NCBI GenBank assembly: GCA_012523405.1
Contig: JAAYIN010000088.1
Span: 1 to 64,000, forward strand
Direction of reading: 5' to 3'
Length of the DNA: 64,000 bases
Source: Clostridiales bacterium
Lineage (GTDB): Bacteria > Bacillota > Clostridia > Christensenellales > Aristaeellaceae
The notes below the pieces were generated by a model. It was given only the letters and a program-made list of their open reading frames with translations, was not told where the DNA came from and made no database searches. Below, piece by piece: positions 21,749-38,200 of the stretch (positions are counted from its first letter, which is position 1; each line of letters opens with the position of its first letter). Both the position numbers and the translations under genes were made by a program.

Positions 21749-22600
21749 TTAGCTCTTGGCGCGGCAGCGAAGAACTTCCATATGGATGGTGATGGCAGCA
21801 GGGCTGTGCAATGCGAGTTCCTCATCAGAAATAGAGAATGTCATAGGGGTCATTTTCAGGAAATGCTTTGCCTGCACAGGGCTTAATGGCATGGTATGAT
21901 GAATGACCTTGCGCTCTATGATTTGCATCTGCGCCTCCAAATGAGAGACGACCTGCGAATTATCATAGCTATCATTACGAAGATGTCCCGATACAGCCTC
22001 TCTCACTTCTTTGAGATACTCGTTTCCGGGGACGACCTTGATCAGTTCGCCATCTGGACTGAGCACTCGCCTAAATTCCGTGTAATCGGCAGGCGTGAGC
22101 ACATCCAAAACAAGGTCAATGCTGCTGCTGGCAATCGGCAGTTGCTTGAGGTTGGCAACGAGAAAGTTCGCTGTGCTTGCAGTGCGTGCTGCGGCCATGA
22201 TGGCATCGCGGCTCAGATCAACGCCGAGAATTTTCGTATTTGGCAGCTGCTTGGAAAGTTCGCGGGCATAGTAGCCCTCCCCGCAGCCTACATCCAGAAG
22301 CGAAAAGGATTGATCTGCAAAGCGGTTTTGAAGCATACTATGGATGCAGCTAACTACAGGCGTATAAAAACCATCTTCAAAAACCTGCCTGCGGCTTTCA
22401 AAAAGCGCTTGGTCATATTTTTCTTTGGACTGCACGTGACTTGGTGCAAGGTTTACATAGCCCTTGGCCGATAGATCAAAACAATGGTTCTGTGTGCATC
22501 TGAGGCTTTGTCCATCGCAGAGGAAGGGCGAAGCGCAGACGGGGCATTGCATGATGCGGAGCATGGGCTCAAGTTTCGTTGCTAAGACGGAAAGTTTCAT
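21749..22600 (-). CDS. RlmA-type 23S rRNA (guanine-N1)-methyltransferase
   Basis: Predicted 283-residue SAM-dependent enzyme. An N-terminal zinc-binding module (CPVC near residue 18 and CTQNHCF near 34) precedes a Rossmann-fold domain with LLDVGCGEGYYARELS, as in RlmA(I)/(II), which methylate G745 or G748 of 23S rRNA; the AKGYVNL segment after the zinc site is also typical. In Gram-positives RlmA(II) can affect tylosin susceptibility. AAAGGA lies eight bases before the ATG at 22600; an ATG at 22609 would overlap it. Confidence 0.87.
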   Translation of the reverse strand: MKLSVLATKLEPMLRIMQCPVCASPFLCDGQSLRCTQNHCFDLSAKGYVNLAPSHVQSKEKYDQALFESRRQVFEDGFYTPVVSCIHSMLQNRFADQSFSLLDVGCGEGYYARELSKQLPNTKILGVDLSRDAIMAAARTASTANFLVANLKQLPIASSSIDLVLDVLTPADYTEFRRVLSPDGELIKVVPGNEYLKEVREAVSGHLRNDSYDNSQVVSHLEAQMQIIERKVIHHTMPLSPVQAKHFLKMTPMTFSISDEELALHSPAAITIHMEVLRCRAKS

Positions 22601-22789
22601 CGTGCACATCCTTTGTTGGTAGTGATTAATCCATTCGACAGCGTGATAGGCTCTCCCTGCAAATGCGTTTGTCCGTGCAGCCAGAGGAAGTAAATGGCAC
22701 CAAATACACTAAAATGGCGTATTTTGATACCGAAAAACGCAAAAAAGATAATTATTGCAAAAAATTTCACAAAGATTCTCGGTTTGCTC

Positions 22790-24003: not shown

Positions 24004-25881
24004 TTACTGAATGCCGTATTTTTTCAGCCTGCGCCATAGGGTGGTTTTGCTGATACCGAGCATTTGTGCACAGGCAGAGCGATTGCCGCCAGAGGATTCA
24101 AGCGCCTGGATGAGTTCGGCTTGCTCCTTGTTTTGATAGACAGGGGCGGCTTTTGCAGGAGGCTGATCCTCGCCCGCTGCTAGGTGTTTGAGGACGAAAC
24201 TCTCTGTGATCTGGGGACCATCGGAGAGAATAACTAATTTGGCTAGGAAGAGCTTGAGCTCAGGCTCGTTGCCTGTCCATGGCTGGGCATGAAGCAGCGC
24301 CTGAGCGCTTGGGGTGAGGGATATCTTCTTATGGACGGTTCTGGTTCTAGTTAGGTTTTCAAGCTCCTGCGCGATAATCAGGGGGATGTCCTCGCGGTGG
24401 GCGCGTATGGACGGCAAGGTCAAACGGAAATGTGCAAGCCGATAGTACAGGGGCAAAGAAAATTGGTCGGCCAATGCGGTTGCATGCAAATCCTTATGCG
24501 TGGTGCAAATCACGCGCACATCCACAGGCAATTGCGCCCGCAGGCCTGGTCTGCGAATATGTGCATTGTCAATGAGATTAAGCAGAATATACTGCCCGTT
24601 TGCGCATAGCAACTCCACGTGCTCAATGCAAAGCGTGCCGCGATGCGCTAGCTCCAGCGCCCCTTTAAAGGCATCTGTGCCAGTGCGTCCGCATAGTTGC
24701 TCCTCCTGCATCGCTGTGGTGATATGCGCCAAATTCAGCCGAACATAGGGGTTTTTGCGCCTCGGGCTGGCATTGTGGATGGCCTGCGCAAAGCTCGTTT
24801 TGGCTGTGCCAAACTCTCCGTCAAGGAGCAGGGGCATATCGTATTGCGCATATTTTGATGCGGTTTCGATTGCTTCGAGCATTCTTGGCGAGACGCTTGG
24901 GATATCCTCGAAGGTCGTTTTCGCGATATAGCCATTGGATATTCTTGTGGCGCGAACCGTTTCCTCCAATTCATCAATTTGCTGAAAAGCCTTCAAAGAT
25001 AGTATGAACCCGTCTTTTTGTTCGCCGCTAGCAAGTGCAGCCATGTTGGCAACGAAAGCCTCACGTCTGGTGCGAACCACTATACCGTATACATCGCGGC
25101 ATTCCGAAAGGGCGGTTGATAGGATGTCTTGATCGTCCAGCTCAAGCAGATTAAAGATGGATTTTTGTTTGAGCTGCTCTTCAGGAAGGCGAAAAACACC
25201 GCAAGCCATGCTGTTGGCAAGCATAACGTGACCGGTGGCATCCAGCTTTAGCACGGCATCAAATGAATGGTTAAGAAGCGCTGAAAACTCCTGCGTTTTT
25301 TTCTTTTCTGTTGTAATGCCGTATTGAACCCTGCGCGCCATGCGAAGTGCCATGGAAATACTCTCTTTCGTTGAACTGAGAAAAAGAGCTAAAACCCCTT
25401 GCTCTTTGGCACGCGACATAGCCATTTCGCCGCCGATAATCACATCTGCTCCGTTTGCCAGCGCGGTATCAACGGTTTCAACAATGGCGCTGGGATTTGG
25501 GGCACAGTACATGCGAAGCTCGGCATCTAGCAGGGACGCAATAGGAGCTGGATCGCTGAACATGGCATCAAACCCAATGAAAGCAATATGGGGGCATGGC
25601 TTTGGGCATATGGCAATGGCCTCCTTTGCGATCAAGGCGATTTCTTGTCCTGAAAGCACCATATCAACCAAGGGCAGGGCCGTTTGGTGTCGGATGAGGT
25701 AGGCGTGGTAGCCTCTGGCAATGACCACTGCATCCTCTCCAGCTTGTACGGCAAGTACATCCTGCACAACCGTTTGGGAGGATGTGAGAATCACCTCTCC
25801 TATTTGGTGCTCGGCGGCAAGTAATTCAGTTGCCTGATCAAACATTGATTGATTGGAAGTTGCAACAATAAGCTTGGGCAT
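24004..25881 (-). CDS. PrpR-like regulator with degenerate sigma-54-activator AAA+ domain (copy 1)
   Basis: Predicted 625-residue regulator. Residues 1-190 match the PrpR N-terminal sensor (LVDMVLSGQE, GADVIIGGEMAM, FLSSTKESI). A PAS domain lies near 200-310, an AAA+ core near 325-560 and a Fis-type HTH at the end (NRSACAQMLGISKTTLWRRLKKYG). The core is altered: the P-loop reads GEFGTAKT (355-362) and the GAFTGA loop that contacts sigma-54 is missing, replaced by a short GRTGTDAFKG stretch. Walker B reads LCIEHV. It is divergent from glucarate dehydratase, so it probably controls the aldarate island, without sigma-54. Confidence 0.82.
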   Translation of the reverse strand: MPKLIVATSNQSMFDQATELLAAEHQIGEVILTSSQTVVQDVLAVQAGEDAVVIARGYHAYLIRHQTALPLVDMVLSGQEIALIAKEAIAICPKPCPHIAFIGFDAMFSDPAPIASLLDAELRMYCAPNPSAIVETVDTALANGADVIIGGEMAMSRAKEQGVLALFLSSTKESISMALRMARRVQYGITTEKKKTQEFSALLNHSFDAVLKLDATGHVMLANSMACGVFRLPEEQLKQKSIFNLLELDDQDILSTALSECRDVYGIVVRTRREAFVANMAALASGEQKDGFILSLKAFQQIDELEETVRATRISNGYIAKTTFEDIPSVSPRMLEAIETASKYAQYDMPLLLDGEFGTAKTSFAQAIHNASPRRKNPYVRLNLAHITTAMQEEQLCGRTGTDAFKGALELAHRGTLCIEHVELLCANGQYILLNLIDNAHIRRPGLRAQLPVDVRVICTTHKDLHATALADQFSLPLYYRLAHFRLTLPSIRAHREDIPLIIAQELENLTRTRTVHKKISLTPSAQALLHAQPWTGNEPELKLFLAKLVILSDGPQITESFVLKHLAAGEDQPPAKAAPVYQNKEQAELIQALESSGGNRSACAQMLGISKTTLWRRLKKYGIQ

Positions 25882-26226
25882 AAAAACCTCCTTTTCAAAG
25901 AAAAAGATGGATGATGTGATGATGAGGTGACTTTAAAAATTCTATATCTGCATGCACAAAGCATACAGTGTTACGAGGCATATTGCAATTGATAAGCATC
26001 AATTTTGCGACATTTTGTGGAATCGCAAATCAACGATAGTGAAACGAAACGCAATGCGGTGAAATGAATGGGAACGCAACGTTTCAGATTGTGGAAAATG
26101 GGTGAAATTAGTTTTGTTGTTTTGTAGAAAAATGTAGAAAAACACGGAAATTAACATTGATGAACTGGTTTTGTGTTGTTAATATAAAGGTATCAAAGAA
26201 CAATTGAAACATTATGAAAGAAAAAA
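25882..26226. promoter_or_regulatory. Divergent control region between regulator 1 and glucarate dehydratase
   Basis: AATTGAT-AAGC-ATCAATT at 25987-26004 is a perfect 7-bp inverted repeat, a candidate operator for the Fis-type HTH of the regulator. A second, looser pair is TGAAACG near 26040 with CGTTTCA near 26080. The sequence TGTAGAAAAA is repeated directly near 26123-26143. No gene seen. Confidence 0.55.
26157..26185 (+). promoter_or_regulatory. Candidate sigma-A promoter of the aldarate operon
   Basis: TTGATG at 26157-26162 and TAATAT at 26180-26185, spacer 17, about 40 bases before the first gene. No sigma-54 type GG-N10-GC element was found here. Confidence 0.5.
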
Positions 26227-27567
26227 GTGAGTGTGAAAGGCATGACCCCTGTCATTAAGGAAATGTTGGTTATCCCTGTAGCAGGAAGAGACTCAATGCT
26301 GCTAAACCTGAGCGGAGCTCATGGAGCATATTACACCCGCAATATTATATTGCTGACAGACAGCCTGGGTCACGTCGGTTTAGGCGAAGTACCCGGCGGG
26401 CAGAAAATCACAAAAACACTGGAGGATGCGCGTCCATATGTGGAAGGTGCATCAATTGCTTCCTACAAGCAGGTCATGCATACCATTCAAACCACATTTG
26501 CTGATCGTGATAGCGGCGGACGCGGTCTTCAGACCTTTGACCTGAGAACCACGATTCATGCTGTAACAGCAGTGGAAGCAGCCATGCTTGACCTTTTGGG
26601 TCAATATCTGGAAGTGCCGGTTGCTCAGCTTCTCGGCGAAGGTCAGCAGCGCGATGCTATCAAGGTACTGGGCTACCTATTCTATATCGCTGATCGCAAA
26701 AAGACCGACCTTCCCTATCATACAGAGCTTGACAGCGACTGCGAATGGTACCGCGCACGCACCGAGGAAGCGATGACAGCGGATGCGATCGTTCATTTGG
26801 CAGAAGCCTCCAAGGAGCTCTATGGCTTCAATGACTTCAAGCTAAAGGGCGGCGTTTTGGAAGGAAAGGAAGAAATCAAGGCGATCAAAGCCTTGAAGAA
26901 GCGTTTCCCCGATGGACGCATCACCATTGATCCCAATGGCGGCTGGCTGCTGAAGGATGCAATCGAGCTGTGCAAGGATTTGAAAGGCATTCTTACCTAT
27001 TGCGAAGACCCTTGCGGCGCAGAAGGCGGATTCTCAGGCCGCGAGATCATGACGGAGTTCAAAAGGGCAACGGGTCTGCCAACTGCTACCAACATGATCG
27101 CAACAGACTGGCGCCAGATGTGCCATTCCGTTGCCTTGCAATCCGTAGACATTCCGCTGGCTGATCCGCATTTTTGGACGATGGAGGGCTCTGTGCGCGT
27201 AGGTCAGATGTGCGATGCATTTGGACTGACATGGGGCAGCCATTCCAATAACCACTTTGATATCTCGCTTGCGATGTTCACGCATGTGGCTGCAGCTGTT
27301 CCCGGAAATCCCACAGCGATTGATACGCACTGGATTTGGCAGGAAGGGCGTGAGCGCCTGACCAAGGAACCCTTCCTCATTCGCGACGGACATATCAAAG
27401 TACCTCAAAAGCCTGGTTTGGGCATCGAGCCTGATATGGAGCAGATCAAGGCAGCTAACCAGCTTTACATGGACAATTGCCTTGGTGCACGCGATGATGC
27501 ACAGGGAATGCAGTACTTAATCCCCGGTTGGACTTTTGATCCTAAACGCCCCGCTATGGTGCGATAA
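26227..27567 (+). CDS. gudD: Glucarate dehydratase
   Basis: Predicted 446-residue enolase-superfamily enzyme converting D-glucarate (and L-idarate) to 5-keto-4-deoxyglucarate. [26 protein letters not shown] is characteristic of GudD. The base K207 sits in KLKGG, H339 in [10 protein letters not shown]235, E260/E266 and N289 stand where metal ligands are expected. The start is uncertain: GTG 26227, GTG 26233 and ATG 26242 are all in frame and no clean ribosome site decides. First gene of the aldarate island, 23 bases before the DHDPS-family gene. Confidence 0.95.
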
Positions 27568-27590
27568 ATATGGGTTGAGGAGTGAAATCA

Positions 27591-28493
27591 ATGCTTTTTA
27601 TGCCTAAAGGAATTATTATTCCTGTCGTTACGCCAATCACGCAAGACGGAAAATTCAATGAGCCTGTATATCGCGAGCTTTTGGAGCATTTCGTTACAAA
27701 TGGTGTCCACGGCGTTTTCCCATTTGGAACCACGGGTGAGTTCTATGCCTTTGATAATGCATTTTATCGAAATGTATTGGAAGTCACAAAGGATGCAGTT
27801 GGCGGCCGCATGGACATCTATGCGGGTGCAAACCACATCACAACACGAGGCGCGATTGAGATTGCACAGATCGCGCAGGAAGTCGGCGTGGAAGCGCTGT
27901 CTGTCCTAACGCCTATGTTCGTATCTCAAACGCAGGCGGAGGTTGAGCAGTATTATCGCGAAATCGCGGACAGTACCGATCTTCCCATTATCATCTATAA
28001 CAACAAGCCTAAGACGAATGTCACCGTCGAACCTGCAACCGTTGCTCGTTTGGCTAAGATCAAAAACATCGTAGCGGCAAAGGATTCCACAGGCGATATG
28101 ACAAACACCGAGGAATATATTCGCTTGACCAGAGACAATCCGGAGTTCAAGGTGCTCATGGGTCGCGATACGCTGATCTATGCAGCCCTATGCTATGGCG
28201 CGGTGGGCGCAATTACATCGTGCGGCAACGTAGCTCCCCGCCTAGCTGTGGATATCTATGAGCACTTCATGGCAGGCAATGCACAGGAAGCGCTCGAGGC
28301 GCAGTTCAAACTCAGCATGCTGCGCATCGCAACCAATATGGGCACATTCCCTGTCGTGCTCAAGGAAGCGCTGGAGATGATCGGTTTCCCCGTAGGCAAA
28401 TGCGTCGCGCCTATTCAGCCCCTCAATGAAGCTCAGCGCGAAAAGCTGAGCGAAGTGCTTACCACCCTAGGCCTCGTGGATGCAGGCCGCTAA
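27591..28493 (+). CDS. DHDPS/NAL-family lyase, likely 5-keto-4-deoxyglucarate aldolase or dehydratase
   Basis: Predicted 300-residue class I (Schiff base) lyase. GTTGE near residue 46, YNNKP with Tyr136, and the Schiff-base Lys164 in AAKDSTG are intact. In glucarate operons such enzymes are often KdgD (decarboxylating dehydratase), giving 2-oxoglutarate semialdehyde. Here, however, the operon also carries tartronate semialdehyde reductase and glycerate kinase, which need an aldol split to pyruvate and tartronate semialdehyde. I infer the aldolase role (the GarL reaction by an unrelated fold). ATG 27591 fits GAGG at 27576-27579; GTG 27582 is too close. Confidence 0.85.
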   Translation: MLFMPKGIIIPVVTPITQDGKFNEPVYRELLEHFVTNGVHGVFPFGTTGEFYAFDNAFYRNVLEVTKDAVGGRMDIYAGANHITTRGAIEIAQIAQEVGVEALSVLTPMFVSQTQAEVEQYYREIADSTDLPIIIYNNKPKTNVTVEPATVARLAKIKNIVAAKDSTGDMTNTEEYIRLTRDNPEFKVLMGRDTLIYAALCYGAVGAITSCGNVAPRLAVDIYEHFMAGNAQEALEAQFKLSMLRIATNMGTFPVVLKEALEMIGFPVGKCVAPIQPLNEAQREKLSEVLTTLGLVDAGR

Positions 28494-28547
28494 AACCTGA
28501 AACACGCTGGCGATGCCAGTGGAAATAAAGAAAGAAGGTACCATATT

Positions 28548-29570
28548 ATGAAGAGGATCATTTCTATTCTTCTTGCTGTAATGCTCACCCTAGGCATGGT
28601 TATGTCCGCTAGCGCTTCTGTCTATGAAGGCGGAAGAGTCCGTATCGTTATCGGTTCAACCTCCGTATCCGGCGATAGCTACATGGTAGCAGAAACTGTT
28701 AACCAGTACCTGCAAAAGTATCTCAACTGCAACTCTAAGGTTGATGCTGTTGGCGCTAATGAAGCCCTAAGCACCATCGCCACCGCTAAGAACGACGGCT
28801 TGACCCTCATGATCTTCCATGACATGACGTATCTAGGCGTATTGTTTGAAACATATGACGAGATGTATGCACTTGAGAACATGGTTGTTGGCCCCCGCGT
28901 TGGTCAGAACCCCGGTTCTTGCTTCGCAGCAAAAGCTGACACTCCCTATGCAGACATGAAAGAAATGGCTGACTATCTACGTGACAACCCCGATGCAACC
29001 GCGCGCGTTGCTGTTGAAGCAGGCGGCGTGAGCCATATCGGATTCGTTGCTTATTACATGTGGGTGAAGGACACCTACGGCGAAGACGTTTCCAAACGCG
29101 TGAAGATCGTTCTTGGCGGCTCTACAGACGAGAAACTCCAGCTGCTATGGGATGGCAACTGCGACGTGATCTTTGCTGACTACTCCTCACTTCTTCAGTA
29201 CACCCAAGAGGGCGTTGACGCTCAGCTGGCTGTGAAGTTCGTTGGTATGCTGGATCATATCCCCGGCATCGACGGTCTGCCCGTACTTGGCGATCTAGGC
29301 GTAACCCTAGGCGGCGAGCCCTTCTACTTCTCCAAGGATTTCCTTATGTATCTACCTAAGGATACCGCTCCTGAAGTCATCGCTGAGCTTGACGCTGCTA
29401 TGGCACAGGTTGCTGCAGATCCCGATTTTCAGGCAAAGATGAGCGAGCTTACCTATGCTCCCAACGTACTTGACAGCGCAGCTGCAAACGAGTTCATCTA
29501 TGGAAAGCGTGATGGCATTGCCACATTGATTCAGACCGCTCCTTCCTTTGACGAATTGATGGATCAATAA
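28548..29570 (+). CDS. Tripartite tricarboxylate transporter substrate-binding protein (TctC-like)
   Basis: Predicted 340-residue exported binding protein. A signal peptide ends ASA near residue 24; no lipobox is present. The body has the TctC/Bug pattern (VRIVIGSTSVSGDSYMVAETVNQYLQKYL..., HDMTYLGVLF, GGSTDEKLQLLWDGNCDVIFADY). It delivers ligand to the TctB/TctA membrane pair that follows. Position between glucarate dehydratase and tartronate semialdehyde reductase suggests aldarates (glucarate, galactarate) as ligands rather than citrate. AAGGTACC-type spacing gives a fair ribosome site (GAAGG). Confidence 0.87.
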   Translation: MKRIISILLAVMLTLGMVMSASASVYEGGRVRIVIGSTSVSGDSYMVAETVNQYLQKYLNCNSKVDAVGANEALSTIATAKNDGLTLMIFHDMTYLGVLFETYDEMYALENMVVGPRVGQNPGSCFAAKADTPYADMKEMADYLRDNPDATARVAVEAGGVSHIGFVAYYMWVKDTYGEDVSKRVKIVLGGSTDEKLQLLWDGNCDVIFADYSSLLQYTQEGVDAQLAVKFVGMLDHIPGIDGLPVLGDLGVTLGGEPFYFSKDFLMYLPKDTAPEVIAELDAAMAQVAADPDFQAKMSELTYAPNVLDSAAANEFIYGKRDGIATLIQTAPSFDELMDQ

Positions 29571-29622
29571 TCTTTCGCATCGCATGGCAAAGAACGATTG
29601 ACAAGTAGCTTAACTAAGAATA

Positions 29623-29650
29623 CTGCGCGGCAGGCATGCTTGCCGCGCAG
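29623..29650 (+). other. 10-bp hairpin between tctC-like and tctB-like genes
   Basis: CTGCGCGGCA at 29623-29632 is the exact complement of TGCCGCGCAG at 29641-29650, loop of eight. No T-run. Likely stabilises the 3' end of the binding-protein message or dampens expression of the membrane subunits. Confidence 0.6.
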
Positions 29651-29689
29651 GGAGTTACCCATTCATAACGTCAAAAGGAGGACCTCCTC

Positions 29690-30130
29690 ATGAAGGAATT
29701 ATTCAAATTTAAGACCATGCATTTGGTCTTCCCAACGATCATCGGGTGCATTCTCCTCATTTTGGGCATTGCGCTGATCATTCAACGCTACCGCCTCTGC
29801 AAAAAGCAAGGCACACCTTTTTTCAACTTTAAGAACTTTCATTTCTTTGAGCCTGGCTATGACAAGCTAAAACTATATGGTTCTTTGGTACTGTTCATTG
29901 GATACATCTCATGCCTGGAGCCAATGGGCTTTTTATGGGCTAGCATTTTGTTTGTTTTCCTATTTAACGTACTTTTTGCCGAATCCATTAACCTAAAGGT
30001 TCTGTTTGGTAAGGCTGAAGGTGCAATTGTTAATGCGAAATCCCTTCTCATTTCAGTAGCTGTCGCAGTTATTGCTTCGACTTTTATCTGGTGGCTGTTC
30101 GGCATCGTGTTCAATATTACTTTACCATAA
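29690..30130 (+). CDS. Tripartite tricarboxylate transporter small membrane subunit (TctB-like)
   Basis: Predicted 146-residue protein with four membrane helices, near residues 10-30, 62-78, 80-95 and 118-143, in the TctB/DUF1468 arrangement. Between the first two helices lies a Phe-rich polar loop. It works with the large TctA subunit encoded 16 bases downstream. The ribosome site AAAGGAGG precedes the ATG. Confidence 0.85.
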   Translation: MKELFKFKTMHLVFPTIIGCILLILGIALIIQRYRLCKKQGTPFFNFKNFHFFEPGYDKLKLYGSLVLFIGYISCLEPMGFLWASILFVFLFNVLFAESINLKVLFGKAEGAIVNAKSLLISVAVAVIASTFIWWLFGIVFNITLP

Positions 30131-30146
30131 AGGCAGGTGACACCTC

Positions 30147-31631
30147 ATGGATGTTTTGTTAAATTTTGGTCTTGCTGTTTTGGGTGTTGTTGTCGGCATT
30201 ATATTCGGCGCGATTCCCGGCATGACTGCCACGATGGCAGTCGCTGTATTTCTTCCACTGACGTATGCATTTGATCTCGTACCCGCGCTGTTCTTGCTGC
30301 TTGGTCTGTATGTCGGCGGCATCTCCGGCGGCTTGATTCCAGCCATTCTGATCAATATCCCCGGTACGCCGAGCTCTGTATGTACAGGCTTTGACGGCCA
30401 TCCCATGGCTCGCCGCGGCGAGGGCGAAAGAGCGCTTAAAATCGGCATCACCTCTTCACTGATCGGCGGACTCATGTCCTTGCTCGTGCTGGCGCTGCTT
30501 ACTCCGCCTCTGGCAAGGCTTGCCATCAAGTTTTCAGCTGTTGAGAAATTCTTGATCATCCTCTTTGCGATGACGGTTATCGCTGCTCTATCAAAGGGCA
30601 GCATGACAAAGGGCGTTTTTGCTGGCTTCCTCGGTGTGCTATTAGCGTTGATTGGTGAATTTACCAACAATAACAAGATGCGTATGGTACCCGACATGTT
30701 CAAAATGCAGCTTCGCGGCGGTTTTGAGCTACTCCCTGTGCTCATCGGACTTTTCGCTATCGCGCAGATGTTCCAAGAAGCGGAAAAGGGCATGAAGAGT
30801 ACGAACCTGAACGAAGGCGTTGATGTCTCAAACGCTGTTAAGTTCTCGCTGAAGGATTTCAAGGGACAGGGTGTTAACCTCGTTCGTTCAGGCTTGCTTG
30901 GTACACTAATGGGTATTCTGCCAGGCGTTGGCGGCAGTGCAGCTTCCTTGATTGCCTATTCACAGGCAAAATCATGGTCTAAGCACCCTGAAAAGCTTGG
31001 CACAGGTGCAATCGAAGGTTTGGTTGCTTCCGAAACCTCAAACAATGGTCTAACAGGCGGTGCGCTCGTCCCGCTACTGTCCCTTGGTATACCAGGCGAC
31101 TCTACGACCGCTGTTCTCATCGGTGCATTCATGCTTCAGGGTATCCAAGTCGGACCTCTGTTCATTCAGCAAAACCCTGCTACTTGGAACTGGATCTTGC
31201 TCGCACTGTTACTATGCAACATTTTGATGTTTGTGCTGATGTTCTTCCCCATTAAGCATATTGCCAAAATCGTCAACATCAAATCGTGCCGTCTCTATCC
31301 TGTCATCGTGCTCATGTGCATCGTTGGTGCATATGCAATCCGCAGCGGTAACATGTTTGACGTATGGAGCCTGCTCATCTTCGGTATCTTGGCATATGTC
31401 TTTGGAAAGATCGGTTTGCCAACTGCGCCGTTCCTCATTGGGTTTATCCTCGGCGGCGACCTTGAAAAGTACTTCATGAGCGCAATGAACGGTAACGATT
31501 ACAATCTCTTATGCTTCTTCCAGCGTCCAATCGCTCTTGTGATCTGGGTACTTATTATCGGATTCCTAGGCTATGCCATTTGGGATAATTCCAAGGGCAA
31601 GCGTATGGAAAAAGCAGGTATGAAGGACTAA
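30147..31631 (+). CDS. Tripartite tricarboxylate transporter large membrane subunit (TctA-like)
   Basis: Predicted 494-residue permease with around twelve helices. Two inverted family signatures are clear: GAIPGMTATMAVAVFLPLTYA...LYVGGISGGLIPAILINIPGTPSS near residues 22-77, and GILPGVGGSAASLIAYSQAK...GVPGDSTT-like LGIPGDSTTAVLIGAFMLQGIQVGP near 258-335. Uses the ion gradient to take up the ligand passed on by the binding protein. It is the core of the likely aldarate uptake system. Confidence 0.95.
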   Translation: MDVLLNFGLAVLGVVVGIIFGAIPGMTATMAVAVFLPLTYAFDLVPALFLLLGLYVGGISGGLIPAILINIPGTPSSVCTGFDGHPMARRGEGERALKIGITSSLIGGLMSLLVLALLTPPLARLAIKFSAVEKFLIILFAMTVIAALSKGSMTKGVFAGFLGVLLALIGEFTNNNKMRMVPDMFKMQLRGGFELLPVLIGLFAIAQMFQEAEKGMKSTNLNEGVDVSNAVKFSLKDFKGQGVNLVRSGLLGTLMGILPGVGGSAASLIAYSQAKSWSKHPEKLGTGAIEGLVASETSNNGLTGGALVPLLSLGIPGDSTTAVLIGAFMLQGIQVGPLFIQQNPATWNWILLALLLCNILMFVLMFFPIKHIAKIVNIKSCRLYPVIVLMCIVGAYAIRSGNMFDVWSLLIFGILAYVFGKIGLPTAPFLIGFILGGDLEKYFMSAMNGNDYNLLCFFQRPIALVIWVLIIGFLGYAIWDNSKGKRMEKAGMKD

Positions 31632-31635
31632 TGAT

Positions 31636-32544
31636 ATGGACGTATTATCAAAGATGATTTCCACACAGGCTGCATTGTTTATCTATATGGCGACGGGAGT
31701 CATCTGCCGAGTGGCAGGCATTATCAACGACAAATCACGAAAGCACTTCAACGCTTTTCTTGTAAATGTAACTTTGCCTGCTATGATCTGCGCTTCTTTT
31801 CTAACCAAAAGGTCAGCGCAGGAATTAGCGCAGGCTGGGATGATGCTCATCATCTCCGCCTGCGTCTGCTTGGCATCCTACGGGCTATCGCTGCTGATTT
31901 GGCGTGGAAAATCTGCGGGGCAGCGAAGCATATTGCAGTTTGCCACCATGTTTTCAAATGCCGGCAACGCTGGGCTTCCTGTGGTTGCCATGGTCTTTGG
32001 GGATGCGGGGGTTCTCTATGCATCCTTTTTTCTCATTCCGATTCGCATTTTCATGTGGACATTGGGTCTATCCTTCTTCATGCCCGAAAAGGGCGGCGGT
32101 AAACTCAAAAAACTCATGACAAATCCGTGCTTTGCCGCGGTGTTTGTAGGTCTTGGTCTGATGCTTTTGCCCTTTCAGATGCCTGCTGTCCTGCAAACAT
32201 CAATGCGTTCCATTGGCAATATGACAGGCCCGCTCTCCATGATGATCATCGGCTCGACACTGTCTGAGATGCGTCCTAGGGATATGCTTGATAAGGAAGC
32301 ACTCATGGTAAGCGGTGTTCGTCTGATTCTGATTCCACTCGTGCTGATGGGTGTGCTGCGTCTGGCGGGACTAGCGGAAACAAGCTGGCAGGTAGCGGTG
32401 ACATTGGTTGCTATGCCTGTGGCTACACTGACAGTTGTCTTTTCTGAAACGTACGGGGGCGATCATCACTTTGCATCTCGCTGTGTGTTCATCTCCACCG
32501 TGTTGTCTCTTGTCACTGTACCTTTGATGACTTTGCTGTTTTAG
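31636..32544 (+). CDS. AEC family transporter
   Basis: Predicted 302-residue membrane protein with ten hydrophobic segments, matching the auxin efflux carrier family of bacterial organic-acid carriers. LVNVTLPAMICASF near residue 49, FSNAGNAGLPV near 110 and PLSMMIIGSTLSEM near 199 are characteristic; family members such as MdcF or MleP-type carriers move dicarboxylates. The gene begins four bases after tctA and precedes tartronate semialdehyde reductase, so it may move an aldarate or a pathway acid such as glycerate. The direction of transport is unknown. Confidence 0.85.
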   Translation: MDVLSKMISTQAALFIYMATGVICRVAGIINDKSRKHFNAFLVNVTLPAMICASFLTKRSAQELAQAGMMLIISACVCLASYGLSLLIWRGKSAGQRSILQFATMFSNAGNAGLPVVAMVFGDAGVLYASFFLIPIRIFMWTLGLSFFMPEKGGGKLKKLMTNPCFAAVFVGLGLMLLPFQMPAVLQTSMRSIGNMTGPLSMMIIGSTLSEMRPRDMLDKEALMVSGVRLILIPLVLMGVLRLAGLAETSWQVAVTLVAMPVATLTVVFSETYGGDHHFASRCVFISTVLSLVTVPLMTLLF

Positions 32545-32588
32545 CATCAGGTGCATACTTATACATTTTGATATGGAGGATTCTAATT

Positions 32589-33473
32589 ATGAAAGTTGGA
32601 TTAATTGGACTTGGCATTATGGGAAAGCCCATGGGCGCAAATTTGCTTAAAAAAGGGTATGATCTCACGGTATTTGACCGCAACCTCACGCCTGTGCAGG
32701 AGCTTGTGGCGGCAGGCGCAAAATCTGCAGCTGATGTTCGTGAACTGGCAGCTAGCTGCGATGTGGTGCTGACGATGCTGCCCAACTCGCCCCATGTCAA
32801 GAACGTTGTGCTTGAAGCAGGCGGCGTGATAGAAACGATTCGTGAGGGCTCTGTAGTGATCGATATGAGCTCTATTAATCCGATGGCTTCTCGCGAAATC
32901 GCTGCGGAGCTTGAGAAGCATGGCGTTAAAATGTTGGATGCGCCCGTTTCTGGCGGAGAACCAAAGGCAGTGGACGGAACGCTGTCGTTCATGGTTGGCG
33001 GACCTGAAGATGTGTTTGAAGCGCATAAAGAACTGCTGTCTTCGATGGGTGCTTCTGTTGTACGCTGCGGCGAAATTGGCGCAGGCAATGTCACGAAGCT
33101 TTGCAACCAAGTGGTTGTGGCGGTGAACATCGCAGTTGTTGGCGAAGCATTGATGCTGGGACAGAAAGCGGGCGTTTCGCCTGATGCGATTTACCGCGCG
33201 ATTCGCGGCGGACTTGCAGGCTCTACCGTTATGGATGCGAAAGCACCCATGATGATGGATAGAAACTTCAATCCAGGATTCCGCATTGACCTGCATATCA
33301 AGGATTTAAATAACGTTCTTGATACCGCAAAATCCGTTGATGCACCTATGCTTCTGACCAATCAGGTGATGGAAATGATGAAGGTATTGCATCACGACGG
33401 CGAAGGACAGAGCGATCACAGCGCATTGGTGAAGTTCTATGAGAAGCTGACGGACGAGCAAATCGGACGTTAA
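32589..33473 (+). CDS. garR: Tartronate semialdehyde reductase (2-hydroxy-3-oxopropionate reductase)
   Basis: Predicted 294-residue beta-hydroxyacid dehydrogenase reducing tartronate semialdehyde to glycerate with NAD(P)H. GLGIMGKPMGANLLKKG is the Rossmann loop plus substrate motif; DAPVSGGEPKA near residue 117 binds substrate; catalytic Lys170 lies in GNVTKLCNQ. GGAGG precedes the ATG. Co-directional with the aldolase and glycerate kinase genes, it gives the second half of the aldarate route. Other family members act on 3-hydroxyisobutyrate, but context decides for GarR. Confidence 0.92.
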   Translation: MKVGLIGLGIMGKPMGANLLKKGYDLTVFDRNLTPVQELVAAGAKSAADVRELAASCDVVLTMLPNSPHVKNVVLEAGGVIETIREGSVVIDMSSINPMASREIAAELEKHGVKMLDAPVSGGEPKAVDGTLSFMVGGPEDVFEAHKELLSSMGASVVRCGEIGAGNVTKLCNQVVVAVNIAVVGEALMLGQKAGVSPDAIYRAIRGGLAGSTVMDAKAPMMMDRNFNPGFRIDLHIKDLNNVLDTAKSVDAPMLLTNQVMEMMKVLHHDGEGQSDHSALVKFYEKLTDEQIGR

Positions 33474-33579
33474 GCAAGAAATCAAAATCAGGGGGGATCT
33501 TCTTTGAATGGAAGGTCCTCCCTACGTCAATAGGCATGAAAAGTCATGCTTTGATGATCACGGTATGGGAGGGCGAAGT

Positions 33580-35472
33580 ATGGCAAAGATTTTAGTCGTC
33601 ACCCCCACACAGCAGATGTTTGAGCAAGCACAAGAGGTAGTCAACGAAACCCAGCTTGATGTGAAGCCTCTTTTGGTTTCATCGGATACGGTGCTGGAGC
33701 TTGTGCTGCGTGAACGCGAGAATGGCGCGGCGGTTGTGGTGGCACGGGGAAACCATGCTCATTTGCTCAAGAGCGAGACGGGTATTCCGGTGGTGGAAAT
33801 CGTTTTGTCGGGGCAAGAGCTGGCGCTGCTGATTGCTCGTGCTAAGGAAATGAGCGGCAAGGATTATCCGCAGATTGCGCTTGTTGGCTTCCGCCATATG
33901 TTTTCAAACCCTGAACCCTTGGCACAATTGCTCAAAGCAGATGTACAGATTTACTACGCCGCGCCTCCCATCAATATGTCGGTGGTGGTGGACAAGGCAT
34001 GCAATGACGGTGCGGATGTGGTTGTGGGCGGCGAGCTGGCCATGAAGTATGCTAGGAAAAAAGGCGTGAAAACGCTCTTCTTGGAGTCTACAAAGGAAAG
34101 CATGCTGACGGCGCTAAGCACGGCAAAAAGGGTGCTGTACGGCATTGAGCTTGAGAGCAGCAAGACCAACGAATTTATGTCGCTGCTCAATTACTCCTTT
34201 GATGCGATATTGAAACTCAAGCCGGATGGGCGCGTTGCTATTGTGAATTACATGGCAGAGAAATTGCTCCACAAAAGGGCATCGGAACTCATTGGCATGA
34301 ACATTGCTGATCTTTTGGATATCGGACAGGACAGCGCGATTGCGCAGGCGATGGAAAAGCGGAAAAGTGCTTATTCAATCGTGGTACGCACCAAGCGCGA
34401 TGCATTTATTGCGAATATCGCCAGCTTGAGCGTGGATGGCGCCAATGAAGGGTTTATTCTATCGCTTCAAGAATTCAAACGAATAGATGAAATGGAAGAG
34501 ACGATTCGATCGGATCGATACAACCGAGGGTATCGGGCAAAGACATCCTTTTCTCAGCTCAATACGATATCCCCGCGAATTCAGGAACTGCATGAGGATG
34601 CGCTGCAATACGCGCAGTACGAGCTCCCGATTCTCATTACGGGCGAATTTGGCTCAAATATGATTCCGCTTGCGGAGTGCATTCATAACGCAGGCATACG
34701 CAGCAAGAATCCTTATGTAGTGATGGACCTCTCGGCTCTTTCACCAGCTATGCAGGAAGCGCAGCTGCTTCGGGATGCGGGAGATGGGCAGGGGAAAAAC
34801 CTGTTTGAAATTGCTCATAATGGGACACTTGTGCTAGAATCAGTTGATATGCTTGACATACAAGGTCAGTATCAACTGCTGAGTGTGATTCGAAAAGGGT
34901 GCGTAATCCATGCCGATGGAAGGCGCATGCTTCCCGTGAATGTGCGGCTCATCTGCACGACGTGCAAGGACTTGTACACATTGGTTCGGCAAGGGCGTTT
35001 CCTTGAGCCTTTATATGCCTATGTGAGCCAATTGGAACTCTCCGTTCCGCCGCTTCGGGAGCACGCAGAGGATATTCCGCAGCTGCTTGAGGAGTTCATG
35101 GCACGGTTTGCGGGGAAATATCGAAAATTCGTTATCATCAGACCCGAGGCACAGGCGCTCATTCATGCGCATCCTTGGAACGGTGATATCTTGCAGCTCA
35201 GGCTATTTTGCGAGAAAATCACGCTGCTTGCGAGGGGAAAAGAAGTGGATGAGGACTTTGTCAAAAAGCATCTGCCAAGAACTTTTCATGAAGATGGGGA
35301 GCTGTTGAGCCAGAGAGAAAACAAAGTACCCCCTGTTTTATACTCGAGGGAAGAAGCTGAGCTGCTAGCGGCGATTGATCAAGTGGGAACAAGCCGCGGT
35401 GAACTCGCCGGTCACCTTGGTATTAGCAAGACGACCCTGTGGCGGAAGATGAAAAAGTACGGGCTTGCTTAA
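33580..35472 (+). CDS. PrpR-like regulator with degenerate sigma-54-activator AAA+ domain (copy 2)
   Basis: Predicted 630-residue paralogue of the regulator at 24004-25881, co-linear through its length: PrpR N-terminal sensor (VVEIVLSGQE, GADVVVGGELAM, FLESTKESM), PAS domain (about 200-310), AAA+ core and Fis HTH (SRGELAGHLGISKTTLWRKMKKYG). Degeneration goes further here: the P-loop reads GEFGSNMI (355-362) with no Lys, Walker B reads LVLESV, the GAFTGA loop is absent, and the usual arginine-bearing YYRL block reads YAYV. ATP hydrolysis is unlikely. It lies within the aldarate operon between garR and glycerate kinase. GGGAGG sets the start at 33580. Confidence 0.82.
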   Translation: MAKILVVTPTQQMFEQAQEVVNETQLDVKPLLVSSDTVLELVLRERENGAAVVVARGNHAHLLKSETGIPVVEIVLSGQELALLIARAKEMSGKDYPQIALVGFRHMFSNPEPLAQLLKADVQIYYAAPPINMSVVVDKACNDGADVVVGGELAMKYARKKGVKTLFLESTKESMLTALSTAKRVLYGIELESSKTNEFMSLLNYSFDAILKLKPDGRVAIVNYMAEKLLHKRASELIGMNIADLLDIGQDSAIAQAMEKRKSAYSIVVRTKRDAFIANIASLSVDGANEGFILSLQEFKRIDEMEETIRSDRYNRGYRAKTSFSQLNTISPRIQELHEDALQYAQYELPILITGEFGSNMIPLAECIHNAGIRSKNPYVVMDLSALSPAMQEAQLLRDAGDGQGKNLFEIAHNGTLVLESVDMLDIQGQYQLLSVIRKGCVIHADGRRMLPVNVRLICTTCKDLYTLVRQGRFLEPLYAYVSQLELSVPPLREHAEDIPQLLEEFMARFAGKYRKFVIIRPEAQALIHAHPWNGDILQLRLFCEKITLLARGKEVDEDFVKKHLPRTFHEDGELLSQRENKVPPVLYSREEAELLAAIDQVGTSRGELAGHLGISKTTLWRKMKKYGLA

Positions 35473-35521: not shown

Positions 35522-36685
35522 ATGTTGAAAATTCTATTTGCTCCGGATTCGTTTAAGGGTTCGCTGAGCGCAGTGAGGATTACGCAGATCCTGGAGCAAA
35601 GAGCAGCATTGCATTTCAAGGGATGCCAAACCATTTCTTTGCCCGTTGCCGATGGCGGGGAGGGCACAGTGGATGCCTTGGTGATGGCGCTTGGCGGCAC
35701 GAAGGCTACGCATGCGGTATCAGGACCAATGGGTCTGGCGGTAGAGGCGGCTTTCGGCTGGCTGAATGACGGCGAAATAGCAGTCGTCGAAATGGCGGAG
35801 GCTTCAGGCTTGCCGCTGATGGGCAGCCATCCCGATCCTTTGAAGGCATCCTCCAGAGGGACTGGCGAACTGATTGCGCATGTGATTGAGCAAGGCGCAA
35901 AGAGCCTGTTGATCGGTATTGGAGGAAGTGCGACCAATGAAGGCGGAATGGGCATGCTCGCTGCTTTAGGCGCGGTTTTCTACGATGATCAAGACCGCGT
36001 TCTCTACGGCACGGGCGAGGATTTATGCAAGGTGGTTCGCCTTGATCTATCTGGGCTTAATCCGCTGCTCTCGCAGGTGGATATCACGGTGATATGTGAC
36101 GTGACGAATCCCTTGCTGGGCGTGGACGGAGCGACGGCAATCTATGGTCCTCAAAAGGGAGTAACAGCAGAGCTTTATCCGAGGATTGAGGCGGGCATGG
36201 AGCGATATGCTGCGCTGCTTGAAGAAGCGCTGGGCAAGGACATCGCATCTGCACCAGGCGCAGGAGCGGCAGGCGGCATGGGCGCGGCGCTGGGCGGGGT
36301 GCTGGGGGCGAGGTTGCGTCCAGGCATTGATGCAGTGTTGGAAACGGCTGACTTTGATCGAATCATGAAGGAGTGCGACCTTGTCATTACGGGCGAGGGT
36401 CGCTTGGATGGTCAATCCGTGCGCTTTGGCAAAGTGCCTGCGGGCATTGCTAGCCGCTGCAATGAGCAAGGCGTTCCTGTCATTGCGATTGTCGGCAGCA
36501 TGGGCGATGGTGCGCAGGCGTACTATGATCTAGGGATGACGAGCATTGTAACCACAGTCAATGCGATTATGCCGCTTGAGACTGCGATCAGCGATGCGGA
36601 AGCGCTATTAAGCGATGCTGCGGATCGTGTGTTCCAAATGGTGAAGATAGGCATGCATATACAGAACAAGCAGTTGGAGGGATAA
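35522..36685 (+). CDS. garK: Glycerate kinase (GarK/GlxK family)
   Basis: Predicted 387-residue kinase phosphorylating D-glycerate, the 2-kinase in the characterised GarK family. LFAPDSFKGSLSA near residue 4, PVADGGEGTVDAL, GIGGSATNEGGMGMLAALGA, and GAAGGMGAALGG...LVITGEGRLDGQS are family signatures. The ATG at 35522 follows GGAGAAGGGAG by 11 bases; an in-frame ATG at 35495 is an alternative. It lies between regulator copy 2 and galactarate dehydratase and completes conversion of aldarates into central metabolism. Confidence 0.93.
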   Translation: MLKILFAPDSFKGSLSAVRITQILEQRAALHFKGCQTISLPVADGGEGTVDALVMALGGTKATHAVSGPMGLAVEAAFGWLNDGEIAVVEMAEASGLPLMGSHPDPLKASSRGTGELIAHVIEQGAKSLLIGIGGSATNEGGMGMLAALGAVFYDDQDRVLYGTGEDLCKVVRLDLSGLNPLLSQVDITVICDVTNPLLGVDGATAIYGPQKGVTAELYPRIEAGMERYAALLEEALGKDIASAPGAGAAGGMGAALGGVLGARLRPGIDAVLETADFDRIMKECDLVITGEGRLDGQSVRFGKVPAGIASRCNEQGVPVIAIVGSMGDGAQAYYDLGMTSIVTTVNAIMPLETAISDAEALLSDAADRVFQMVKIGMHIQNKQLEG

Positions 36686-36688
36686 ACG

Positions 36689-38200
36689 ATGCGTAAATAT
36701 GTGAAGGTACATGATATCGACAATGTGGCGATTGCTGTTTTGCCGGTGATGGCTGGCGAGGAAATCTGCGAGGGGATCACTGCCAATATGGATATTCCTC
36801 AGGGTCATAAGGTGGCACTTGAAGAGATTCCCGCTGACGGAAAGATCATCCGCTATGGCGTGACGCTTGGCTATGCAAAGGATTTGATTGCTAAGGGGGA
36901 TTGGATTAATGAGAATATGCTCGATTTGCCGATCCCTCCATCCTTGGAAGATATGCAGTTCGCCGTAAACCTCAATACGGACTTGCCCAAAGCACCGGCT
37001 CGGACTTTCATGGGCTACGCTTCGGCCGACGGTGGATATGCCGGCACCAGAAATCTATTGGGGATCCATACGACTGTTCAGTGCGTAACGGGCGTGCTGA
37101 ACGTAGCGGTTGACCGCATTCGCAAGGAACTGTTACCCCTGTTCCCGCACGTTGATGGCGTTGTTCCAATCAACCATGCCTATGGCTGCGGGGTTGCGAT
37201 CAATGCTCCAGAAGCAAAAGTGCCGATTCGTACGCTGCGTAACCTCGTGCATCACCCGAATTTCGGCGGCGAGGTCATGTGCGTTGCGCTTGGCTGCGAG
37301 AAGCTAACGGTGGAAATGCTACTTGATCCTAAGGACAATACCGCTGAAAACGTCATCGTGCTTCAAGAAGTGAAGGGCTTTGATGCAATGATCACTGCGA
37401 TTATGGAGATGGCTCAAGTGAAGCTTGAGCACCTTGAGGCACGCCGCCGCGAAGAATTGCCGCTAAGCAAGCTTCTGGTTGGTATGCAATGCGGCGGGTC
37501 GGATGCATTCTCAGGTGTGTCTGCAAACCCGAGTGCGGGCTATGCGGCTGATATGCTTGTGGAGGCGGGGGCAACCGTTATGTTCTCAGAGGTGACGGAA
37601 GTGCGTGATGGCGTACACTTTATCGGCGAGCGCTGTATCAATGCGGAAGTTGGGCAGCGGCTCGCGCAGGAAATGCGTTGGTATGACCAGTATCTGGCAA
37701 ACGGAGAGGTCGATCGCAGTGCAAATCCAACACCCGGTAACAAAAAAGGCGGGCTGTCAAACATCGTTGAAAAGGCAATGGGCTCCATTGCGAAGTCTGG
37801 TACATCACCTATTGTTGAGGTGCTATCGCCTGCTGAGCGCCCCAGCAAACATGGCTTGATCTATGCGGCAACGCCTGCAAGTGACATCGTTTGCGGTCCT
37901 TGTCAGCTTGCGAGCGGCATCGGCTTGCAGGTGTTTATGACGGGCAGAGGTACGCCCTACGGACTGGCTGGTGCACCTGTTATCAAGGTTTGCTCGCGCA
38001 ATGAGATGAAAGAACAATGGCCGGATTTGATCGATGTAAATGCAGGACCTGTTGCGACAGGTGAGCAAACCATCCAGCAGGTAGGGACGACGCTGTTCCA
38101 TACAATTGTCAATGTGGCTAGCGGCACTGAAAAGCCATTTGCTGAGAAGTATCAGCTGAACAACGATCTCTGTATCTTTAACCCCGCGCCGATTACCTAA
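36689..38200 (+). CDS. garD: Galactarate dehydratase, UxaA family
   Basis: Predicted 503-residue enzyme turning galactarate into 5-keto-4-deoxyglucarate, the same intermediate formed by GudD. An N-terminal SAF-like domain (DNVAIAVLPVMAGEEI...GHKVAL) is followed by the UxaA catalytic region: GYASADGGYAGTRNLLGI, INHAYGCGVAINAPEA with conserved Cys/His, GCEKL, and MQCGGSDAFSGVSANP. It starts three bases after the glycerate kinase stop. Altronate dehydratase is a relative, but the length, the AYGCGVAINAP block and neighbours fit GarD. Confidence 0.92.
   Translation: MRKYVKVHDIDNVAIAVLPVMAGEEICEGITANMDIPQGHKVALEEIPADGKIIRYGVTLGYAKDLIAKGDWINENMLDLPIPPSLEDMQFAVNLNTDLPKAPARTFMGYASADGGYAGTRNLLGIHTTVQCVTGVLNVAVDRIRKELLPLFPHVDGVVPINHAYGCGVAINAPEAKVPIRTLRNLVHHPNFGGEVMCVALGCEKLTVEMLLDPKDNTAENVIVLQEVKGFDAMITAIMEMAQVKLEHLEARRREELPLSKLLVGMQCGGSDAFSGVSANPSAGYAADMLVEAGATVMFSEVTEVRDGVHFIGERCINAEVGQRLAQEMRWYDQYLANGEVDRSANPTPGNKKGGLSNIVEKAMGSIAKSGTSPIVEVLSPAERPSKHGLIYAATPASDIVCGPCQLASGIGLQVFMTGRGTPYGLAGAPVIKVCSRNEMKEQWPDLIDVNAGPVATGEQTIQQVGTTLFHTIVNVASGTEKPFAEKYQLNNDLCIFNPAPIT

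Follow-up and report, generated by a model that had tools for sequence, protein, structure and literature searches.

A 64,000-nucleotide stretch of DNA from a Clostridiales bacterium (GCA_012523405.1, contig JAAYIN010000088.1, positions 1 to 64,000; hereafter the window) encodes two PrpR-like regulators, P0001 and P0002, at a gud/gar locus for glucarate and galactarate use. We propose, judging from their sequences and from the sites around their genes, that both are probably ATP-independent, ligand-responsive activators that work at sigma-A promoters in the manner of TyrR. The proposal draws on the disappearance of both the sigma-54 contact motif and ATPase residues from these two proteins and from the clade to which they belong, on the scarcity of sigma-54 and its promoters around members of that clade, and on arrays of predicted operators that keep a shared helical register to sigma-A-type promoters.

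Motif losses in the two proteins and in their clade

P0001 is encoded by an open frame at 24004-25881 on the minus strand (625 amino acids), and P0002 by one at 33580-35472 on the plus strand (630 amino acids); the two proteins are 43.5% identical. Both match PrpR_N, PAS, Sigma54_activat, AAA_lid_14 and HTH_8, with PrpR_N, Sigma54_activat and HTH_8 above their Pfam cut-offs, which bears out an original prediction, made from the DNA letters, that they are co-linear paralogues with a PrpR_N-PAS-AAA+-Fis layout; in the broad sense of a protein that combines PrpR_N, AAA+ and Fis, both are PrpR-type. When they are aligned with intact relatives and with PrpR, TyrR and DhaR of E. coli, both lack GAFTGA and have a shortened L1 loop, as had been predicted. 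E. coli PrpR reads GAFTGS at this place, and no shifted GAFTGA is seen in the translation of either window protein. The P-loops were also read correctly: they lie at residues 355-362 and are GEFGTAKT in P0001 and GEFGSNMI in P0002, the GK pair of Walker A being replaced by AK and NM, and only P0001 retains the P-loop lysine. Walker B (hhhhDE) has become CIEH in P0001 and VLES in P0002, with a single acid left in each, a glutamate at the aspartate position. The prediction had P0002 lacking the Walker B acids and the YYRL arginine, and that part stood, but the Walker B loss is not special to P0002, since the DE pair is gone from both. The first arginine motif, FRED, reads FSLP in P0001 and FLEP in P0002, with no arginine in either; the second, YYRL, still has its arginine in P0001 and is YAYV in P0002. 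The sensor I asparagine and the sensor II arginine are gone from both proteins. Neither protein, then, has GAFTGA or a tolerated variant of it, or the set of ATPase residues, by which a sigma-54-dependent enhancer-binding protein (EBP) is recognised.

The original prediction treated the pair as special, a view that did not hold up; P0001 and P0002 are one instance of a clade-wide state. We scanned a contig collection with P0002, retaining the best 80 of 219 relatives, searched 308 family genomes with a profile, which matched at E <= 1e-60 in 40 of them, and placed 107 proteins in a tree, 57 of them without GAFTGA (L124-L126 were omitted as copies of L013, L014 and L011). Fifty-six of the 57 form one clade nested among intact PrpR-type proteins (FastTree support 0.999), with L038, L039, L040 and L063 as its sister; the clade was recovered again, at 99, from 85 of 111 rows with the motif columns removed and under a mixture model. 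Its named members are almost all labelled Clostridia. One member, L030, is labelled Paenibacillaceae but is 95-97% identical to Lacrimispora/Hungatella rows.

Eight residues are invariant in the 50 intact proteins, namely the GK of Walker A, the DE of Walker B, the sensor I asparagine, the two arginines and the sensor II arginine, and the first P-loop glycine is present in 49 of the 50. Among the 56 loop-less proteins, P0001 and P0002 included, 13, that of L142 among them, retain GK; none retains the DE pair, and none retains both arginines. Set against residues that do not vary in 50 intact relatives, the motif losses read from the P0001 and P0002 sequences are not chance. Two early-branching sisters, L012 (9968-11932) and L165 (9038-10969), combine an intact P-loop with a long L1 that lacks GAFTGA and with loss of the Walker B glutamate. 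This suggests that they are candidate intermediates, and that the sigma-54 contact and the catalytic glutamate were lost first and the P-loop later.

A third PrpR_N protein encoded in the same genome (L001; G000:C42:294-1994, minus strand) lacks GAFTGA and the Walker B pair and keeps GDLGTGKD. It fell inside the clade in a FastTree analysis of AAA+ plus helix-turn-helix (HTH) and outside it with motif columns removed and the mixture model; because its terminal branch measures 3.31 and its position is not stable, it is excluded from the 56, and its loop loss is possibly independent.

A survey of related genomes for the same pair, proposed with the original prediction, did not find it in 17 genomes of the genus, 396 of the order or 308 of the family. 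A P0001 search of the genus genomes gave two matches, the protein's own genome and a weak partial match in G062 (E 8.3e-7), while matches at E <= 1e-90 occurred in three of the order genomes: its own, G250 and G358. The G250 match, the only one in that genome, is an orthologue of P0002 in a syntenic operon. Elsewhere, Hungatella hathewayi carries tandem loop-less regulators of different subclades (L016, 6301-8274 and 9977-11932), a non-orthologous pair that adjoins two gudD-like genes, garR and a dihydrodipicolinate synthase (DHDPS) gene.

The catalytic residues have gone while the fold appears to have stayed. AlphaFold models of P0001 and P0002 have a mean predicted local distance difference test score of 90.7 and 88.0, respectively, and the AAA+ parts of these predicted models, which lack GAFTGA, match NtrC1 (1ny6_A) with a Z of 29.2 in each case, at 1.5 A over 241 residues for P0001 and 1.8 A over 240 residues for P0002. 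In the 22 listed of 26 close loop-less pairs, the ratio of non-synonymous to synonymous substitution rates (dN/dS) in the AAA+ domain is at most 0.26 wherever it is computable. Among intact pairs (22 listed of 79) AAA+ is usually the best conserved domain, which it is not in loop-less pairs, suggesting that the constraint is relaxed but present. Given the kept fold and the low dN/dS in relatives, the AAA+ domain, though dead by its residues, probably still has a structural function and is not just a remnant.

Predicted operators and their register to sigma-A-like promoters

A TGAAA-N6/7-TTTCA dyad (at most one mismatch) occurs in 23 of 51 regions upstream of loop-less regulators, against a mean of 4.2 and a maximum of 8 in shuffles, and TGAAAC/GTTTCA occurs 63 times against 15 expected in 55 loop-less regions, and 18 times against 8 expected in 39 intact regions; separate scans used the upstream regions of 44 and of 51 of the 56 proteins, some of them near-copies. 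In one subgroup (L139-L149 and L151), the array of all 12 members continues into CATTGAC, with which a -35/-10-like promoter of the regulator gene begins; half-sites at -27, -17 and -5 from the regulator -35 are all present in seven members. Nine of these 12 loci have a divergent gudL-like DHDPS gene within reach. Eight of the nine have exactly 71 bp between the array anchor and the TTGACG box of this gene, and the other has 60 bp, shorter by about one turn of the helix; mean identity across the gudL-like loci is 38% in the spacer and 74% in the operator. At ABC (ATP-binding cassette) transporter promoters of a second subgroup, the half-sites stand in the same register to a TTGAC box (seven loci were used; L128, which has no clear -35, and L135 were left out, and the first was taken where two promoters tied).

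The window has a corresponding array between the P0001 gene and gudD. Half-sites of the form TGAAAY/RTTTCA start at 26040, 26060, 26081 and 26103, spaced 20-22 bp apart, within a predicted operator array at 26040-26108, and a candidate weak sigma-A promoter of gudD follows on the plus strand at 26157-26185 (TTGATG, 17 bp, TAATAT). An operator matrix built from 11 of the 12 subgroup members, all from other genomes, has its best match in the whole window at 26059-26086, in this same gap, with a score of 20.4 (sites used to build the matrix score 19.4-38.9); the next best, at 8793, scores 16.8. Relative to the candidate gudD -35, the half-sites lie at -97, -75 and -54, a further one at -117 being outside the range of the register scan, and those upstream of gudD in G250 lie at -106, -96, -86 and -75 from a -35 picked by eye. 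With a helical period of 10.6 bp, the register of these two gudD promoters agrees with that of the other groups within about 1 bp. Three group phases this close are found in 2.6% of random triples at that period, which is the one used for this figure of the four tried; this group-level value is fairer than the per-locus p of about 1e-7, which ignores relatedness.

We favour activation over repression, which the original prediction had left as alternatives, on the grounds that the half-sites keep their helical register to the target -35 at a distance of about 40-110 bp; keeping one register over a distance while the spacer is not conserved is what an activator in contact with polymerase requires. 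The computed operator geometry also supports the predicted action at sigma-A promoters. We propose that one PrpR-type lineage, mostly in Clostridia, dropped the sigma-54 machinery. The PrpR_N/PAS half would sense a sugar acid or a pathway intermediate; the AAA+ domain, which by its residues would no longer hydrolyse ATP, would serve as a folded oligomerisation scaffold; and the Fis-type HTH, to go by the conservation of the motif, would bind arrays of TGAAA/TTTCA half-sites. From a single face of the DNA, some 40-110 bp upstream of the -35, the bound protein would then recruit sigma-A RNA polymerase, or stabilise it, at the promoters of gud/gar operons and others related to them. In the subgroup where the array directly adjoins the -35 of the gene for the regulator itself, that gene is likely to be under the regulator's control as well, and so probably autoregulated. 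The likeliest site of action of both window paralogues is the stretch between the P0001 gene and gudD. A fuller version of this account, in which the lineage turned an ATP motor into an ATP-free scaffold by ordered decay (the sigma-54 contact, the Walker B glutamate and one arginine finger being lost before L1 shortened and the P-loop decayed) and moved to helix-face activation at sigma-A promoters, and in which the window paralogues, with their unequally decayed pockets, may form a mixed assembly on the gudD array, we put forward as possible, at somewhat less than an even chance.

Several points weigh against this reading, as do the two observations given below in favour of sigma-54. The dyad is missing from 28 of the 51 upstream regions. 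The distance from the gudL -35 to the gene start is itself nearly constant (68-71 bp), so the fixed spacing of the array may partly be shared descent. The -35 of the G250 gudD promoter was chosen by eye, and at a period of 11.0 bp the disagreement among the three groups reaches about 2 bp. In the window, the gudD promoter scores 8 of 12 and is one of three such pairs, a consensus scan of two window gaps found no -35/-10 pair at 9 of 12, and there is no TGAAAY/RTTTCA within 106 bp before P0002. The best scores of the matrix are low in some clade loci (7.8 in L133, 13.1 in L012 and 13.1 upstream of gudD in G250), and, with nothing strong found in several of them, the layout of the sites varies across the clade. 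Lastly, synonymous sites in the AAA+ domain are saturated between P0002 and L011, and dN/dS of the window pair was not computable.

The foremost alternative is that these proteins are repressors of sigma-A promoters, having lost activation and blocking transcription until the sugar acid is present. An array that abuts the -35 of the regulator's own gene, as in the 12-member subgroup, fits autorepression. At the target promoters, however, the arrays lie 40-110 bp upstream of the -35 in a shared register, which blocking would not need, and the window's gudD promoter is a poor match to the consensus. We therefore consider repression an unlikely, though not negligible, explanation for the clade.

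Nucleotide binding, gene decay and sigma-54

Independence from ATP, proposed here and in the original prediction, is supported by the residues of the two proteins. The reading favoured here may overlap with an alternative that we regard as somewhat less probable than repression, in which these regulators are nucleotide-responsive switches. ATP would still be bound, though not hydrolysed, by some members of the clade, and P0001 (AK) and P0002 (NM) would form a heteromer with one nucleotide-binding subunit. Such a switch would suit the 13 proteins that keep the GK pair, the P-loop lysine and the one arginine that P0001 has and P0002 lacks, and the position of the two genes on the flanks of one operon with one predicted operator. 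It sits poorly with the finding that none of the 56 proteins has the DE pair and none has the two arginines together, and with the fact that the pair is not conserved, G250 with its syntenic operon having a single match genome-wide.

That P0001 and P0002 are pseudogenes decaying after the loss of rpoN would account for the missing catalytic residues and for our failure to find rpoN in the genome, but is very improbable given that the frames are open, the HTH and sensor domains score over their cut-offs, the predicted folds are confident, and relatives show purifying selection, form one clade across many genera and have conserved operators.

The predicted independence from sigma-54 is likewise supported. 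The genome that carries the window, which is 96% complete, has no match to PF04552 or PF04963 (Sigma54_DBD and Sigma54_CBD), PF04552 has none in the 17 genomes of the genus (this one included), in searches whose controls matched in 4 of 14 known genomes each time, and PF00309 has none in eight further genomes with loop-less genes. A comparison that spans 50 of the 57 loci first listed found rpoN with 7 of 27 loop-less loci and with 19 of 23 intact loci (Fisher p 7.5e-5); in the genomes of the other 20 loop-less loci rpoN was not found. The strict promoter pattern TGGCAY-N5-TTGCW occurs once in 841 kb around loop-less genes and 58 times in 619 kb around intact genes, and a looser pattern occurs 23 and 69 times, respectively (regions of 55 of the 56 loop-less and 39 of the 42 intact proteins). 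The only strict site in the window lies within the P0002 gene; neither rpoN in the genome nor, by the strict pattern, a sigma-54 promoter at the target was found. Continued dependence on sigma-54, by way of a sigma-54 that escaped recognition or of an L1 loop in altered form, would be consistent with the 22 sigma-54 pattern matches in this genome against 7 for a reversed control, a mild excess without rpoN, and with the loop-less genes that occur in rpoN-positive genomes (7 of 27 loci; 12 of 28 family loci), but the lack of any sigma-54 domain match, the single strict promoter in 841 kb and the broken ATPase residues make it hardly credible.

Loss of rpoN as the sole cause of the clade was rejected: with loop-less genes present in rpoN-positive genomes, the clade did not arise simply through that loss. 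As a separate observation, 20 family genomes match rpoN strongly (E below 1e-35), and 13 of these have it on the same contig as a PrpR-type gene and within about 15 kb of it (G157:C294, G133:C44, G314:C37, G307:C61, G310:C6, G353:C54, G334:C28, G333:C202, G331:C428, G227:C371, G328:C121, G232:C102 and G347:C1), as though the sigma factor and its activator moved together. Of the 13 PrpR-type genes, seven were classified, all of them intact.

Aldarate genes around the clade and comparison with known systems

The P0001 gene is divergent from gudD, and the P0002 gene lies between garR and the glycerate kinase gene in the gud/gar operon, all of whose genes are on the plus strand. The gudD-like glucarate dehydratase gene (26227-27567; TIGR03247, 794.1 bits, slightly below the cut-off of 828.7) is followed by a gene for a DHDPS-family aldolase/dehydratase (27582-28493), which reached no equivalog cut-off and is a candidate GudL, or KdgD, the name GudL being borrowed as a candidate label (PMC11775122). 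Next come genes for a tripartite tricarboxylate-type transporter, with family matches for TctC (28548-29570) and TctB (29690-30130). The product of 30147-31631, for which the library scan gave no family, we take to be TctA-like from gene order. An auxin-efflux-carrier-type membrane transporter (31636-32544; PF03547 over its cut-off, below cut-off in another family scan) and the tartronate semialdehyde reductase GarR (32568-33473; PRK11559, 468.2 bits, cut-off 397) precede P0002 (33580-35472), whose orthologue in the syntenic G250 locus is 64% identical. Glycerate kinase (35525-36685; TIGR00045, 419.8 bits, cut-off 168.45) and the galactarate dehydratase GarD (36689-38200; TIGR03248, 738 bits, cut-off 730.85) follow. 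These gudD, garR, garD and glycerate kinase neighbours agree with the predicted role in aldarate use. Farther off, the minus-strand gene at 21749-22609 encodes a protein like 23S rRNA guanine-N1 methyltransferases (best match PRK11088, 177.9 bits, cut-off 303), with weaker matches to ChrB, Erm(32) and MyrA.

Across the clade, homologues of gudD, garD, garR or garK were found at 29 of 53 loop-less loci as against 4 of 41 intact loci (p 3.9e-6), and none of the four was seen at the other 24 loop-less loci; these counts are lower bounds, since flank lengths differ and many contigs are short. In L130 and L131, from a subgroup without gud/gar genes, the regulator and an oligopeptide-type ABC transporter operon point away from each other, with a UxuA-like gene after the operon, again suggesting sugar acids. 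The clade supplies candidate regulators of glucarate and galactarate use; no description of it, or of a PrpR-type gud/gar regulator, appeared among the open-licence papers listed in the literature searches. Its graded decay, from an intact P-loop to full loss, offers a series in which to ask what an AAA+ domain does once ATP is irrelevant. P0001 and P0002 score above the Pfam threshold for a sigma-54 activator domain, yet by sequence cannot work as one. As 20 of 27 loop-less loci belong to genomes in which no rpoN was found, counting sigma-54 activators by domain will give too high a number in Clostridia. The same point about overcounting is made for DhaR, VpsR and YplP in an earlier study (PMC3162934), and a survey of Clostridiales EBPs covered only sigma-54-positive species (PMC6615313).

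Among the closest known systems is PrpR of E. coli and Salmonella, which has a PrpR_N sensor, an AAA+ domain and a Fis-type HTH in the same arrangement. Comparison of the models with solved PrpR_N structures gave a Z of 19.4 for P0001 (2q5c; 184 residues, root mean square deviation 3.4) and 18.2 for P0002 (2pju; 185 residues, 3.2). Unlike P0001 and P0002, E. coli PrpR keeps its motifs (GAFTGS, GETGTGKE and LDE) and the two arginines, and the two window proteins do not reach the PrpR equivalog cut-offs, at 173.6 (P0001) and 166.2 (P0002) against 499.2 for TIGR02329, and at 159.3 and 153.9 against 703 for PRK15424.

HupR, VpsR and YplP are EBP homologues whose sensor domains differ from PrpR_N, and VpsR was compared by fold (7v2b). 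According to one study, all three have a changed GAFTGA region; HupR is sigma-70 dependent, and VpsR and YplP are probably not sigma-54 dependent (PMC3162934). EBP homologues freed from sigma-54, namely TyrR, DhaR and HupR, were thus already known (PMC3162934).

Closer to the clade in its decay than TyrR is E. coli DhaR, which lacks GAFTGA, has LEK at Walker B and YYAL in place of YYRL, and is sigma-70 dependent (PMC3162934). DhaR (PRK11388) is also the best NCBIfam match of the window proteins, at 238.5 bits for P0001 and 227.5 bits for P0002 against an equivalog cut-off of 551, which neither reaches; the match covers residues 164-625 of P0001 and 179-629 of P0002, leaving out most of the PrpR_N half. 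DhaR fell within the clade in the simpler FastTree analysis of AAA+ plus HTH, a placement that we rejected when it fell outside with the motif columns removed, although inclusion is not rejected by an approximately unbiased (AU) test (p 0.234).

TyrR of E. coli, whose sensor is other than PrpR_N, is an AAA+/Fis protein of the EBP type that, in our alignment, has a shortened L1 without GAFTGA. It retains Walker A (GDTGTGKD), the DE of Walker B and both arginines, so decay in the loop-less clade goes further. In the tree TyrR lies outside the clade, its inclusion not being rejected (AU p 0.346). As set out in a published account, TyrR acts at sigma-70 promoters through TGTAAA-N6-TTTACA boxes, and it activates through the alpha C-terminal domain on the matching face of the DNA (PMC4374768); we propose that P0001 and P0002 probably work in a similar way.

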